Shown here piece after piece: positions 22,490-59,199 of a stretch of DNA of 64,000 nucleotides. The DNA lies in contig OY730173.1 of the NCBI GenBank assembly GCA_963422465.1, positions 3,162,001 through 3,226,000 of the forward strand, in the 5' to 3' direction. Positions within the stretch are counted from its first letter, which is position 1. Each line of letters begins with the position of its first letter. The position numbers were made by a program, and so were the translations under genes. Source of the DNA: Lichina pygmaea (lineage: Eukaryota; Ascomycota; Lichinomycetes; Lichinales; Lichinaceae). The notes under the pieces are model-generated. The model saw only the letters and a list, made by a program, of their open reading frames with translations. It was not told where the DNA came from and ran no database searches.

Positions 22490-24567
22490 ATCGACGTCAG
22501 TGATCATGGGAGGGTGGGAGGGACCGGGCGGGACGGCAGGAGCGAGCGGATGATATCGAATGCCGCGTGCTGAAACGGAAGGAGGGTACGATTGCTCATT
22601 GTCGGGACCACGGCGTCTTGTCCTGTCAGTGGGTTGCGGACATTTCTGCGGTGTTATTCGGCGATCTCGGCGAGCAGTCACGGGGAGGACTTATACCCAG
22701 ATGGCTACCTATACTTGGCGGTCAAGGCGAAGCACGGCGCATGGACGGTCATGGACGGTACACATTGAACAGCGACAATCACAATGGGGCAAGCAGGGCA
22801 AGCAGAAAAGGGGAAAATGGCTCATGAGGTCATACGGCGGATGTCATGGAACGTGGCGAGGACGGTGGGTATACAATAGAAGAGCATGGTCAGGTGCGGC
22901 AGGAACATAATAGGTGGAGCTAGCCTAGGCCTGGGCAGCTGGGCAGGAATATCAGTACTTGACTCTCTGTCGTCTGGTGGTGGCTGGTGCTTGCAGTCTG
23001 TAGTCGGAGGTCTGGTGTCTGGCATTTGTAGTCTGTAGTCCGCACTCTCCTGTCTGCCGTCTGCGGTGGTATACATAGTCTACTGTCTTCTCTCTTCTGT
23101 CCGCTATCTTCCTTCTCCTGTCTTCCGTCTTCTGGATACTGTGGCCATGCTCTACACACAATCTATCCATTGTCTACATACAATCTACGGTACTGCCGTC
23201 ATCAAACACTCGGCATGTTACATGACAAGACCAGCCAGCACAGCCTGACCCACCAAAAGTGACACGATCGTGTCCCCTCGTAGGCCTTCCGCTACAAAAA
23301 GTCAACCACTAGTAGCTACACCCAAGCACAGCAAGAAAACAGCATGACACGACAACACCAACCTCTGACCCCACCAAGAGCTTATGATGTGCACCAAGAA
23401 GAGACGATCACAAGAAACAAGAGCAGATGATGAACCCATCGATCATCATACAACAGAAAGCGAAGAAAGGAAAGAAAAAAAAAAGAAACCACTGTGATGA
23501 CTGGCTCACCAGAGCCTGATGTAGATATCGTTGATGGCGTGTTCATCTGAAGAGATTTTGCTAGGAGATGATACTGCCCCAAGGATTGGCGTGGAAGGAC
23601 AGCGTGTCTTCTGCGTGGCTAGATGGGTGTGTCAGTTTGGGTGTGGATGTGGACATGGATATGAGTGGATACGGTATGGACAAGGGGTGTGAATGTTCAG
23701 GATAAGCACTTGGGTAAGAACATTTAGGGTACAGCTGTCAGGGCAGATATAGCTATCGGGTACAGATACAGTCATCGGTATGGGTACAGCTAGAGGTATG
23801 GGTACCGACAAGGCCATGGCTCCCTAACTATCGATATCGATCAAGAAGGGGGGAGTGAGTGGTGCTTCTTCTCCGCGTACGGTACCTGCCACTATACGCC
23901 CTGTATGTCGGGCTTTGTGCTCCGAGGATGGCATGTGGTAAATTGACCCGAGAGAACAGCAGGCATGAATACTAGGCGTGGACACTAGGCGTCGACACTG
24001 GGGATGAACACTGGGGATGGACACTGGGGATGGACACTGGGCATGAACGACGGGCATGAACACTCTTGGTGCTTCTTGATGGGTACCCTGTAGTAGATAA
24101 AAGTCGGCACGGTGGGGTAGAAAGGTCTTATACACCCTGCTGTGTACTATCTGCCATGTACCATCTGTCATCTGTCATCCGCCGTGTCTCCTCTTCTCTA
24201 GGTGCAATCTTCTGATATATCTGGCCCATGTACGTAACAATCTCTGGAGAAAAGCGGGTAGTTTGAGGGGCTTCATCGACAATGAGCTTTTGGGATTGGA
24301 TTGGCGTGAAAGGAGACACTGACGGAGCTAGAGAAGGAGAGGGATTAAGGAAAGAGAGATGAGCGTACGGTAGAGAGATACATGGTGGACTTGACAGAGG
24401 GAGGATACAGAGGGATACATGGGAGGAGGAAGAGGATTGAATCGGACAAGATAGAACCCTTGAACCTTGCATGTCTGACAAGACAAGATTTCAAGATCCT
24501 GACAATGCGCGTATCAGTCGACCTCCCTGCCTTGTTGCTTCCAGCACCTCCCGACTCTTGAGACAGA
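22490..24567. other. Intergenic region between convergent genes, repeat-rich
   Basis: About 2.1 kb between the 3' ends of the 20984 gene and the irc22-like gene. No gene seen. 22930-23140 is a CTGTC/AGTCTG-rich stretch of degenerate short repeats. 23620-23820 has repeated GGTATGGGTAC-like words. A 13-bp minisatellite follows at 23962-24065. Confidence 0.55.
23962..24065. repeat. 13-bp minisatellite, eight units
   Basis: Eight contiguous 13-bp units of the form GGSRTGRACACTG, for example GGCGTGGACACTA, GGGATGAACACTG and GGGATGGACACTG. Units at 24014-24026 and 24027-24039 are identical; the outer units are more diverged, as expected for a minisatellite homogenised from its centre. Confidence 0.85.
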
Positions 24568-25869: not shown

Positions 25870-26751
25870 ATGAGCTCTCCAAGGGCTGCGGAGCACATGG
25901 CGGAGGAGGGCGTCGCCCTTTCAGAGAACACCTCTGGGCCAGCAACCTCCAAGGCTCCAGAGCGAACGGCCTGTAAAGCCCCTTGCGGACGAATGCAGAG
26001 GCGCGACGGCTAAGGCGTCCTAGTCACCCAGCTGATGGCACGGAAACACGACACGGATCTTCCGGCGGCACGACGCAGGAGACCACTGTCCTTTGTCGGC
26101 CGAGAGGGGCTCGGCGCGTATCTGGAAGACCCGGCGTCGTTCCCACCCAGCCGAGTCATCTCCCACAGCGACAAGTGGGTCGTCATCAACGATCTCTACC
26201 CCAAATCCTCAGTGCACGTCCTGCTGTTGCCCAGAGACAGGTCCAAAGTCCGGCTGCATCCGCTGGAGGCGCTCGCCGACCCGGCCTTTTTCGCCGAGGT
26301 TCGAGTCGAGACGAAGAGGATCAGAGCCCTCGTGGCCAACGAGCTGAGGCGGAGATACGGCAGGTACTCGGCGCAGGAGCAGGAGCGCCGGCGCGCCACG
26401 ACTGCCGATCCAGTGCCGGATGAGCTCCCGCCGGGCCGAGACTGGGACAAAGAGGTCGTGAGCGGCATCCACGCCGGCCCGTCCATGAGCCATCTCCACA
26501 TCCACATCCTCTCCGTCGACCGCGTCAGCGAGTGCGTGAAGAAGAAAAACCACTACAACAGCTTTTCGACGCCGTTCTTCGTCCTTCTCGACGAATTCCC
26601 GCTGGATCGACTCTCGAGAGCGCTTCATGCGAGACACGGCTACCTCGAGAGCGACCTCGTCTGTTGGAGGTGCGGCGAGAACTTTGGCAACAGGTTCACC
26701 AAGCTGAAACTGCATCTGGCCGACGAGCTTGAGCTGTGGAGGAGCGAGTGA
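25870..26751 (+). CDS. hnt3: Aprataxin-like DNA 5'-adenylate hydrolase (276 aa)
   Basis: Removes AMP left on DNA 5' ends by abortive ligation; a nuclear repair enzyme of the HIT superfamily. Two exons: 25870-25972 and 26024-26751. The 51-bp intron (GTAAAG...GGCTAAG...CCTAG) yields KAPERTAFTQLMARKH, matching the conserved start of the family, so the ATG at 26035 is internal. The HIT domain begins at FVGREGLGAYLEDP with INDLYPKSSVHVLLLPR. The catalytic triad motif is SHLHIHILS (HxHxH). Next is KKKNHYNSFSTPFFV, the conserved DNA-binding segment. The C-terminal C2HE zinc finger is CWRCGENFGNRFTKLKLHLADELE. The protein is complete and close in length to yeast Hnt3 (217) plus a longer N-terminus. 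Confidence 0.92.
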
Positions 26752-27696: not shown

Positions 27697-29638
27697 ATGA
27701 TGGAGACAATTTCACGCATGAGCGGGATGGCCTTGACAGAGAGCGACCAGCATTTTCGCGCCCGCTTCCAGCAGGTGCAGGATACGGAGCGGACGAAGAA
27801 CGCTCTCGTAGAGGTGCGTCGTCCGCCAGCCGAATAGGTCCTGAGGCTCAGCAGGTGCAGGATACGGAGCGGACGAAGAACGCTCTCATAGAGGTGCGTC
27901 GTCCGCCAGCCGAATAGGTCCTGAGGCTCACGGTCGGTCCCGTCCATCGCAGGAGGTGCTCGTCGAGCTCGAAGCCCTGAGAGAGCAGTATCAAACCAGT
28001 ATTATGGACCGAGAGCGCGAGGTTTTCTTCAACCGCGAGTCGCAACAGCTCAGGCACAAGCTAGAGGCGGAAAACCGACGATTGAGAGGCGTCATGGTGA
28101 ATCCCACCTTCGCCCGAGGATGCTCGTCCGAGAGCTCCACCGAGCTGTGCTGAGGCGGATCACAGGAGCGCAATCCATTTGTATTGGTGCTGCTCGACGG
28201 GGACGGCATGATTGTGGGTGGTATCTTTTTTCATTTCTTTTCTACCGTGGTCCTGACGTTTTCCTTCGAACGAGGCCGATGTGACGGCTGACGACGGGTC
28301 TTGACGATACCGTACAGTTCCAAGATTATCTACTACAGCGAGCCGAACAGGGCGGCAGGGAGGCTGCCGCGCTCTTGTGGACGGCCGTGTGCGATTACCT
28401 TGAATCCTCCGCGGGCCTGTCGCACTCGGATTGCAAGATCGTGGTCAGGATATATGCGAATATGAAAGGCTTGGCCGATGCCTGTTACAAAGCCGGCATC
28501 GTCGATTCACCCTCCAAGATTGAGGAGTTTGCCCGTGGATTCACGAGGAGCAAGCATCTCTTCGATTTTACGGACGTCGGGGGCGGTAAAGATCGAGCCG
28601 ATGACAAGCTCGCCGGTGGGCCCTGACCCCGGCACCCCCTGACTGCCCGTCTCAACGGCTAACGGTTCGCTCCGGTGCCCGTCAGAGGTCTTCAAACTGC
28701 ACCTCTACAATTGCAACTGCCGCCTGATCCTCTTTGGGTGCTCTCACGATAACGGCTACGCTCGATTGTTGGAGGACTTCGCGACCGACCCGACCTCGAT
28801 CGAGCGTATCACCATGCTCGAGGGCTACCCGTTTGAGCGCGAGATCGGCGCCTTGCGACAGCATTTTCGCTCGATCAAGTTTGAGAAACTGTTCCGAGAG
28901 ATGAGAATTACGCTGCCGGTGCCAGGGCAGCTTGCGTCGTCTGATTACTCGGCGCAGGCGCAGGCGCAGAAGCAGCATCTTGTTCATCAGCTGCAGCTTC
29001 AGCAGCAGCAGCAGCAGCATCAACAGCAACAACAGATATCAATGCAACAACATCAACAGCAGCAACAGATGCAACAGACCTCCCAGGTCCAGCTGCAGCA
29101 GCACCTGGCACTTCAGCGTTCGGCCACCACTCCCATCACCTCCCAGGGATTCGCCGGATCCGTCTCTCTCTCGGCCAATCCGATCCCGCAGTCGTGGGCT
29201 CTGGCGGCGACGGCGGCGGCCTCCCCTCCCACCACTCCGCACCCGTACTCGTCGGGGCTCGTGGGCAGCGGCAGCAACACGATCCCGCGGAACCGCAAGG
29301 GCCAGCGTGTCGACGCCGAGTTCAAGTACGACCGCTTCGACATCAAGCGCGTCAAGGCGATGAAGATGTGCAACGTGCACTACCTGCGGGGTGACTGTCC
29401 GTACGGAACCGACTGCACGCACGAGCACAATTACAAGCCCACGCCGACCGAGCTGGCGAGCGTCAGGTTCATTGCGCGTCAGGCGCCCTGTCGCATGCTG
29501 ACCGAGTGCGAGGATCCAAAGTGCATCTACGGCCATCGTTGCCCGGCCGGCACGCCCTGCGCCTTTGGCGAAAACTGTCGCTTCCCGCCGGACATGCATT
29601 ATCTCGACACGGTCGTGGTCAAGAGTATTAAGATTTAG
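27697..29638 (+). CDS. Q-rich CCCH zinc-finger protein (519 aa, five exons)
   Basis: Likely RNA-binding protein of a family common in filamentous ascomycetes: coiled-coil N-terminus, a central domain of unknown function, and C-terminal CCCH fingers. Exons: 27697-27813, 27953-28096, 28166-28213, 28318-28615 and 28686-29638. Introns are 139, 69, 104 and 70 bp, and all joins keep frame. The coiled coil spans exons 1-2 (ERTKNALVE-EVLVELEALREQ). The central domain starts NPFVLVLLDGDGMI-FQDYLLQRAEQGG and runs through FKLHLYNCNCRLILFGCSHDNGYARLL. A glutamine/histidine-rich linker follows. The end holds CNVHYLRGDCPYGTDCTHEH and CIYGHRCPAGTPCAFGENCRF. Oddity: an 80-bp tandem duplication copies the end of exon 1 and the first donor. 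Only the first donor gives an open frame, which makes intron 1 unusually long. Confidence 0.88.
27770..27929 (+). repeat. Near-perfect 80-bp tandem duplication over exon 1 / intron 1 boundary
   Basis: 27770-27849 and 27850-27929 are identical except for one G/A difference (27808 versus 27888). Each copy carries the last 44 bases of exon 1 and the first 36 bases of intron 1, including the GTGCGT donor (27814 and 27894). The near identity implies a recent event or an assembly artefact. Confidence 0.95.
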
Positions 29639-29710
29639 CTTTAAGTTTTTGGCGACTCCACTCATACACTGGACTCTGTCTTTTGCCTTGCCCTGGTTTT
29701 GGCCTCTTTT

Positions 29711-29788
29711 GCTTGTGCTTGTGCTTGTGCTTGTGCTTGTGCTTGTGCTTGTGCTTGTGCTTGTGCTTGTGCTTGTGCTTGTGCTTGT
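29711..29788. repeat. (GCTTGT)13 hexanucleotide array
   Basis: Thirteen perfect GCTTGT units starting 72 bp after the CCCH stop codon, so probably in its 3' UTR. Any frame through it is open for long stretches, producing artefactual LCLCLC or ACACAC frames. Confidence 0.95.
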
Positions 29789-31128
29789 TATTGCGCTCGT
29801 GCTCGAGGTCTCTTTCACAATGCACCATGCCACCTACCTCCAAGTTTGCCCACAGCCTCTTTATCAGATTATTGCTGCCGCTTGTGCTCCATGTCACGTC
29901 AATCCAGTGACTGGTCTCTTGTGAACCCTTGTGAAAATCATAGGTATCCACCCATCCACGAACACAATGTGGAGCCGATTGACCTATTGAAATTTTGACA
30001 CGTCATCATGCTGTCCCCCATACTTCATCATGCGCTACAGTATACCAGCGACTTTTTTTTTGGCGTGCAGCAAACAGATGTTTTCCCTTCAGCAAGGGCT
30101 GTTGCTGTCGCTAATCCTCGTACATCTTGTTGACATTTTCTGCCCTGCCTGTCAAGACATTGGGGCACTTATCTTTGTCGCAATTGACAAAGTGTGCTAA
30201 TCGTGCAAGCTCCGAAGAATTGACTCGTGCCTGTTCTTCCTCAGATGTCACGTTGTTCTTGTCATTTCCTCGGTTACTCTCTCTTCTATTTCTTCTATTC
30301 CCTTCCCCTTTGCTCTCTTTACCCCTTTTCTTTTCAACGGATAGCAAAGGTAGGGAGTGGGTACAACACTGCAACCTGCTGGATGTGTGCCACGCCATCT
30401 GTCACCGGACAATATCCCGAGGATGATGGCTGATCCAAGTTGAGCAAACGCTGAGCCAATGCGCGTCGAAGTGGAGGTTGATTAGCTGGAAGGCGAGCCG
30501 CGACAGCATTCATCATCTCGCCCTCTCCCTCCCGCCTCCCCTGCCCCAAAGAAATGAAGCAAAAACACTCTTTCGGCTGTTTACCAGTACACTCATCTAT
30601 CATATCTCTCTTGTTCACGATTTATCTGTCGAACTTTGACCAAGTGCTATACTTCTTCTGAGTGGGGGATGCCGAGAAATTGATCAGTTAGGGGTGTGAT
30701 GAGCTCGGGGCGACATCTCTGCTGAGAGAATGTCTTGCTGTTGTTCAACCTGATATTGTTGTTGTGTAGTTGTGGTTGTGGTGGTGGTGGTGGTGGTGGT
30801 GATGACTACCCGTGCTCAATTGCTTCAGTCAGCAGCCACCGGCACTTACCAAAAAAAGAAAAAAAGAAACCAAGAACCAAAAAAAGAAGGGGGGGGAACT
30901 ATCGTGACCGTGAGACCTATTCATTCCAAGTACCAACACTCAGATTAACTCCAAGCCACTCCTTTCTCAAGGCAGTCTCCCTATCTTCACCCGAGTACAT
31001 AACATGCCACATGTACTCCGTACATGAACGACATTCCACACATAGAAAGTGTTGTGAGCGTGTGGGAGATGTGAGTCGTTCATGTTGTAGATGACTTGGG
31101 TTGTTTGTGATTGATGGTGGGTTGGGGG

Positions 31129-58852: not shown

Positions 58853-59199
58853 TGTTAGTCATGCGGAACAACATCCGACCGATCCGGTGGACGAGCAGGA
58901 GCTAAGCGAGGAGCTCGTCCGGTGGACGAGCAGTCCCTAAGCGAGGAGCTCGTCCACGCAAAAGGATGATACCCCTCGAGGAGACCCCCCCCCCTCGGGG
59001 CATCTGTATAAAGACCCCCCAAAGGGCCCGGAGGGATTAGCTCTCCAGGCTGAACACCAATGCACACATCGTACTGAGACAATAGCACAGGAGAGTTACC
59101 CCACCTGTCTATTCCTCTACCGAGTCCCTGTCTAGAATCCGCCCTGCGAAGCAGCAAGACCGAACCGCCTTCTGTGTGAACCCGGCCCGGCCTTTAACA
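58853..59199 (+). mobile_element. LTR-like fossil (347 bp), retrotransposon family undetermined
   Basis: Begins TGTTAG and ends TTTAACA, a TG...CA structure with a 5-bp terminal inverted repeat (TGTTA/TAACA). It contains a TATAAAG near 59009 and a GC-rich 5' third. It is immediately preceded by a polypurine tract (GAGGGAGGAG), as expected before the 3' LTR of a plus-oriented element. The five bases on each side differ (AGGAG, AACAT), so it does not look like a solo LTR with intact target duplication. I saw no second copy in the window, and no recognisable gag or pol next to it, so the element is broken. Age and family cannot be set without a second LTR. Confidence 0.5.
58886..58955. repeat. 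35-bp tandem direct repeat with hairpin arms
   Basis: Two 35-bp copies (58886-58920 and 58921-58955) differing at three to four central positions. Each begins GGTGGACGAGC and ends GAGCTCGTCC, so each copy can fold with GGACGAGC pairing to GCTCGTCC. Lies inside the LTR-like fossil. Confidence 0.85.

Follow-up and report, generated by a model that had tools for sequence, protein, structure and literature searches.

An 80-bp tandem duplication spanning the exon 1/intron 1 boundary in a Lichina pygmaea DUF7923/CCCH gene and the probable competition between two identical donors

We analyzed a 64,000-nt stretch of the Lichina pygmaea genome (OY730173.1, positions 3,162,001-3,226,000 of the forward strand), referred to below as the window, in which all positions are counted unless stated otherwise. 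It contains a gene for a DUF7923/CCCH zinc-finger protein, which is divided into five exons:

27697..27813, + strand, exon 1 of the DUF7923/CCCH gene (39 codons, phase 0), running from the predicted start to donor 1
27953..28096, + strand, exon 2, which contains the ATG at 28003
28166..28213, + strand, exon 3, in which DUF7923 begins, placed on the basis of the PF25540 match
28318..28615, + strand, exon 4, DUF7923
28686..29638, + strand, exon 5, with the end of DUF7923, a glutamine-rich tract, the CCCH zinc fingers and the stop codon

Joined, the five exons encode a protein of 519 aa, the only stop being the terminal one. Exon 1 is open from tandem ATGs at 27697/27700 and joins exon 2 in frame; the ab initio gene model begins at 27718, not 27697, and its introns for this gene (41, 59, 221 and 70 nt) conflict with the DUF7923-based exon 3. 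When the spliced protein was compared with Pfam, three models scored above their cut-offs, which assigns it to the DUF7923/CCCH family: DUF7923 itself (PF25540) in the middle of the protein (235.1 bits, E 6.4e-70, cut-off 24.5), and the CCCH fingers at its end (PF25543, 64.9 bits, cut-off 24; PF25542, 31.7 bits, cut-off 27). DUF7923 was found in the genome at this gene alone, both matches being its own exons, and no paralogue of the N-terminal 87 aa was found in the genome, all three matches lying at the gene's own locus. A literature search found no mention of DUF7923. The genome contains introns and fungal domains (Fungal_trans, GPR1/FUN34). Upstream on the same strand, at 26035-26751, lies a gene of one exon that encodes HIT, DcpS_C and C2HE zinc-finger domains, a set that we take to be an aprataxin-like architecture; just 3' of the stop codon of the CCCH gene, the hexamer CTTGTG is repeated about 16 times (29706-29803).

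The interval 27769-27928 consists of two adjoining head-to-tail units of 80 bp that are identical at 79 of 80 positions:

27769..27848, + strand, copy 1 of the 80-bp unit, made up of the final 45 nt of exon 1 and then 35 nt from donor 1 onward
27849..27928, + strand, copy 2 of the 80-bp unit, with one mismatch to copy 1

The sole mismatch is G at 27808 in copy 1 versus A at 27888 in copy 2. Where copy 2 has ATA (Ile), members of the family presumably often have Ile. These adjacent direct copies span both exon and intron sequence and thus form a tandem duplication at an exon-intron boundary; each holds 45 exonic nt, GTGCGT and further intron bases, and its end falls, according to how the unit is phased, on the branch adenosine or no more than 2 nt from it. 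The match between the copies continues for 2 bp (CA) up to 27930, a microhomology common to the left breakpoint (CTTC/CAGCAGG) and the right breakpoint (GGCT/CACGG). Because of this extension, phases beginning at 27769, 27770 or 27771 are equivalent. The sequence-only reading had described two copies with one difference in 80 bases and a start at 27770; the copies and their single difference were confirmed, and its start is one of the three equivalent phases.

This arrangement is not a product of chance, since the best 80-nt self-match of the window at offsets of 20-500 was the duplication itself (79/80), whereas the same test on first-order Markov resamples of the window gave a best match of only 41-45 of 80 in all ten cases. 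With the duplication set aside, the best self-match in the window was 72/80, at offset 24, in the CTTGTG array. When the 32.5-Mb, 8-contig genome was searched, the 80-bp unit was found at no second place. In addition, no relatives were found among 5 pattern matches in viral contigs and 58 in genome contigs, a result that says little about relatives because these collections are viral and prokaryotic. The single-copy form was presumably the ancestral state.

Other repeats were also observed. The stretch 58860-58980, which has a 35-bp tandem unit, is a member of a dispersed repeat family: of 353 candidates, 40 (self included) were scored as matches, with 91-100% identity and spread over seven contigs, and 27 of these 40 cover all 121 bases. 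It is probably part of a mobile element. Elsewhere in the same genome, the 40-kb stretch C1:2000001-2040000 (pieces L023-L026) is rich in repeats, with a 79-bp unit present twice (98%), a second 79-bp pair (93%), a 147-bp unit present twice, a 50-bp unit repeated 4.5 times, a 42-bp unit repeated 3.5 times and two 35-bp arrays. In the joined pieces L007-L010, direct repeats at 23053-23087 and 23258-23312 lie 170 and 172 bp apart, with exact 30-mers in common.

Splice signals were scored against introns from our own ab initio splice predictor, which was run without RNA support on 264 kb (the window together with a further 200 kb from this genome). It predicted 88 introns, 84 of them outside the CCCH gene; 47 were strong (score 8 or more), and removal of the three belonging to the CCCH gene left 44 reference introns. 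The relevant signals at the duplication are listed below, with branch sites scored by a motif model from the same genome under which the 44 reference introns span 2.86-6.73:

27814..27819, + strand, donor 1, GTGCGT, score 3.80
27894..27899, + strand, donor 2, GTGCGT, score identical to donor 1
27847-27851, + strand, copy-1 counterpart of the branch site, CTCAG, score 2.12
27850..27860, + strand, possible acceptors within copy 2 (after 27851, 27854 and 27860), giving in-frame mini-exons of 42, 39 and 33 nt up to donor 2
27927..27931, + strand, the sole complete branch-site motif, CTCAC, with its A at 27930, score 4.76

At the donor, 35 of the 44 reference introns score equal to or lower than the 3.80 of donor 1; under an updated splice model both donors score 3.92. 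The branch site was not copied intact, its interior being where the right breakpoint falls, so that two equal donors are accompanied by one complete branch site. There is likewise one good acceptor, at 27952, which is shared by both donors. The distance from donor 2 to the branch point is 36 nt, compared with a reference minimum of 37 (n=44).

The two donors lead to different products:

27814..27952, + strand, intron 1 via donor 1, 139 nt, giving the intact 519-aa protein
27894..27952, + strand, intron 1 via donor 2, 59 nt, keeping 80 nt with an in-frame stop
27835..27837, + strand, TAG in frame with donor 2, closing a 46-codon reading frame

The two donor positions, the intron lengths of 139 and 59 nt and the in-frame TAG had all been read from the sequence before this analysis, and each of them held. 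After the donor-2 stop, the next exon junction follows 56 nt downstream, and four junctions follow in all; a premature stop ahead of a downstream junction is the configuration of unproductive splicing. In Neurospora, according to excerpts of PMC6173133, junction complexes take part in nonsense-mediated decay (NMD). The location of the donor-2 stop before four junctions fits junction-dependent decay, so reduced productive expression is plausible, and the donor-2 mRNA is probably unproductive and degraded. The first ATG after this stop, at 28003-28005, is in frame with the main coding sequence and opens a reading frame of 463 aa in which DUF7923 and the fingers are intact; reinitiation there could yield a shortened protein instead of none.

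The sequence-only reading had treated the 139-nt intron as atypical for this genome, a view that the predicted introns do not bear out. While 17 of the 44 reference introns measure 49-75 nt, eight fall at 111-170 nt and 13 are 139 nt or longer; introns of 48 nt or less account for none of the 44 strong and 2 of the 84 predicted introns. As a control for false predictions, decoy donors GA, GC, CT and TT yielded 2, 6, 7 and 2 strong introns, where GT gave 41, 42, 46 and 45 in the respective runs. At 111-170 nt the corresponding numbers were 1, 2, 0 and 0 for the decoys versus 8, 6, 8 and 8 for GT, and above 170 nt they were 1, 0, 4 and 1 versus 7, 8, 9 and 8; the long end of the reference set is the least certain, because decoys reach up to 4 versus 9 there. 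Moreover, three Pfam domains span long predicted introns: Fungal_trans one of 140 nt, GPR1/FUN34 one of 150 nt and Cyclin_C one of 164 nt, the last of which scores only 5.2 and lies outside the strong set. On the basis of these predictions, a 139-nt intron is apparently ordinary in this genome.

RNA folding around the donors was considered as well. The 80-nt units fold fairly well (z -2.1 and -2.6), and equally good folding was seen in 23 of 600 GC-matched 80-nt windows and in 117 of 1590 windows overall; the 201-nt region does not stand out in its folding (24 of 200 shuffles), and the unit boundaries do not correspond to the best-folding phase. The predicted mean unpaired fraction is alike at both donors (0.19-0.21). 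The probability that 9 nt are fully unpaired is below 1%, and which donor leads depends on the window size (donor 1 in two of three settings); for 6 nt it is 0.3-2.1% at donor 1 versus 0.2-0.4% at donor 2, donor 1 being higher in all three settings. RNA structure as the selector of the donor was rejected, given the unremarkable folding, the like pairing of the donors and a lean in accessibility that is too weak.

Taken together, these data suggest the following course of events. A tandem duplication with ends of 2-bp microhomology would have copied 80 bp over the exon 1/intron 1 boundary, taking the donor with it and breaking off within the branch site. In the pre-mRNA, two identical donors would then compete for a single branch site and acceptor. 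Use of donor 1 would skip copy 2 and restore the presumed pre-duplication mRNA by means of a 139-nt intron, whereas use of donor 2 would retain the presumed old 59-nt intron, keep the 80 nt and bring a stop after 46 codons. Donor 2 may take a substantial share through nearest-site pairing, in which case productive mRNA would drop. Excerpts of PMC6616335 give as a working principle for Aspergillus stwintrons, and for Pezizomycotina, that each splice site joins its closest partner, so that the smallest possible intron is excised; this rule favours donor 2 and makes less productive mRNA plausible. Against donor 2 stand its branch spacing of 36 nt, one below the reference minimum, the 6-nt accessibility that leans to donor 1, and Lipomyces starkeyi, where, in excerpts of PMC7138796, the downstream of two abutting donors is found in fewer cDNA clones (an internal intron being present there too). 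The 36-nt spacing presumably worked before the duplication. Near-total use of donor 2 would all but eliminate the full-length protein, yet the coding sequence farther downstream remains intact; the duplication may be too young for coding decay. Because the donors are equal in score and alike in pairing, and the nearest-site rule is set against the 36-nt spacing, both forms are expected, with productive mRNA reduced. We infer that both donors are used, that nearest-site pairing gives donor 2 a substantial share and that productive mRNA falls. As a whole, a recent duplication that created competing identical donors, the second of them unproductive, and so reduced productive mRNA is the account we regard as probable, and the duplication is read as recent and neutral or mildly damaging.

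The chief alternative is that the duplication is silent, with donor 1 used nearly exclusively and the intron merely lengthened from 59 to 139 nt at unchanged expression. A length of 139 nt within the normal range, the intact 519-aa protein from donor 1, a branch spacing for donor 2 shorter than in any reference intron and the accessibility lean in three of three settings all agree with this; the equality of the donor scores does not, nor does nearest-site pairing (excerpts of PMC6616335), which should favour donor 2, presumably functional before the duplication, and we consider silence rather unlikely. It is improbable, to begin with the duplication itself, that the second copy is nonexistent and the locus an assembly artefact, as the copies differ at one base and the locus lies on a 4.0-Mb contig of a 32.5-Mb, 8-contig assembly, which suggests long reads that would easily span 160 bp. 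A similarly slim chance is given to splicing of a mini-exon, in which an intron of 38-47 nt from donor 1 into copy 2 would be followed by the 59-nt intron, adding 11-14 residues in frame that repeat the end of exon 1. Such splicing would keep the frame and remove the stop, three in-frame CAG acceptors are available for it, and the ab initio gene model chose a pair of 41-nt and 59-nt introns by itself, probably because the retained copy resembles coding sequence. This possibility ranks low because the upstream intron (38, 41 or 47 nt versus a reference minimum of 49, n=44) would be shorter, and its branch site CTCAG (2.12 versus a minimum of 2.86) weaker, than in all 44 reference introns; introns this short are nearly missing from the predictions, as noted above, and the available part of PMC2397502 reports 37 retained introns to 1 cassette exon in fungi and protists. 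For the same two reasons, branch score and intron length, a stwintron or nested intron was not found here.

The remaining readings are weaker still. The duplication might have turned the locus into a two-product gene, with 519 aa from donor 1 and 463 aa from donor 2 and donor choice tuning the isoform ratio instead of simply reducing expression, which we hold to be very doubtful; in that reading the 46-codon frame would serve as an upstream ORF, and the 463-aa form would lack the first 56 residues while retaining DUF7923 and the CCCH fingers. That the duplication was kept by selection as a switch, since regulated donor choice tunes the CCCH protein, is extremely unlikely: the geometry does permit productive and unproductive forms, but the donor scores are identical, the mean pairing is alike, the unit folds unremarkably by the GC-matched comparison, and 79/80 identity leaves little time for selection. 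The suggestion in the sequence-only reading of reduced expression or a poison-exon switch therefore survives in its first half, as geometry and premature stop make lowered expression plausible, while equal scores and like pairing speak against the switch; the label 'poison exon' is also loose, as the feature is an alternative donor with no cassette exon. Three features were overlooked in that reading: the incomplete copying of the branch site, the in-frame acceptors of copy 2 and the in-frame ATG at 28003. Just as remote is recursive removal, in which an 80-nt intron (27814-27893) would leave first, re-creating the original donor, and the 59-nt intron would follow. In copy 2 the exonic portion closes with AG right before GTGCGT, as in the AGGT model (excerpts of PMC4974935), and the best branch motif, CGGAC, scores 3.46, within the reference range at its low end (5th percentile 4.50). 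What places this route low is its GAG acceptor, which scores -1.25 against a reference minimum of -0.13, GAG being used by none of the 44 strong introns and 1 of the 84 predicted ones; intron gain of the AGGT type was not found at this locus on that account.

With competition between the donors as the preferred reading, the locus amounts to a clean experiment of nature: in a genome of short introns, two identical donors separated by 80 nt share a single branch site and acceptor, and their products are easily told apart. The ratio of donor usage would reveal how closely nearest-site pairing is followed in this fungus, and a ready test of fungal splice-site pairing is the main use of the locus. 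It also illustrates how a gene may be endangered, and one of its introns lengthened, by a small duplication that leaves the final coding sequence untouched. The scope is one locus in one assembly. Two-copy units with a period of at least 30 and at least 97% identity occur twice in the 264 kb, one of them in a repeat-rich stretch; as a very rough extrapolation from these 2 units and 88 predicted introns per 264 kb, several such cases per genome would be expected if they are neutral.

Several known systems resemble this locus in part; what follows on them is limited to excerpts of the cited papers. In a Lipomyces reticulon-like gene, donor duplication was suggested as the origin of nested introns ('stwintronisation') (PMC7138796). 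As in Lichina, a donor was possibly duplicated and the same intervening sequence can leave the transcript by more than one route; unlike in Lichina, the duplication suggested there measures 4-7 nt, an internal acceptor evolved and the introns are nested, whereas the Lichina duplication covers 80 bp, reaches into the exon and has no good internal combination of acceptor and branch site. In a potato RdRp gene, a duplication over an exon-intron boundary created an intron (PMC4974935). Both are recent boundary-crossing tandem duplications that alter intron structure, but the potato gene copied the acceptor side of intron 1 and acquired a new intron, while the Lichina locus copied the donor side and needs no new intron, a longer intron or a competing donor being sufficient. 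The AGGT model of exonic tandem duplication (Rogers 1989; Hellsten 2011, as described in PMC4974935) is matched in that the copied unit has AG directly before GT, so that a restoring intron of exactly 80 nt is formally possible; it is not matched in the GAG acceptor with its weak branch site, nor in that the unit already held a real donor. No published parallel for a duplicated donor in fungi was found among the matches listed, in a narrow search that could easily miss one. Competing 5' donors of fungal genes (PMC2397502) likewise combine two donors with one acceptor, although in Lichina each donor is a copy of the other at a distance of 80 nt, and splicing from the second would introduce a stop. 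The Lichina locus is thus ordinary in kind: no first report is claimed, and it belongs with the known duplications of donors and exon-intron boundaries.
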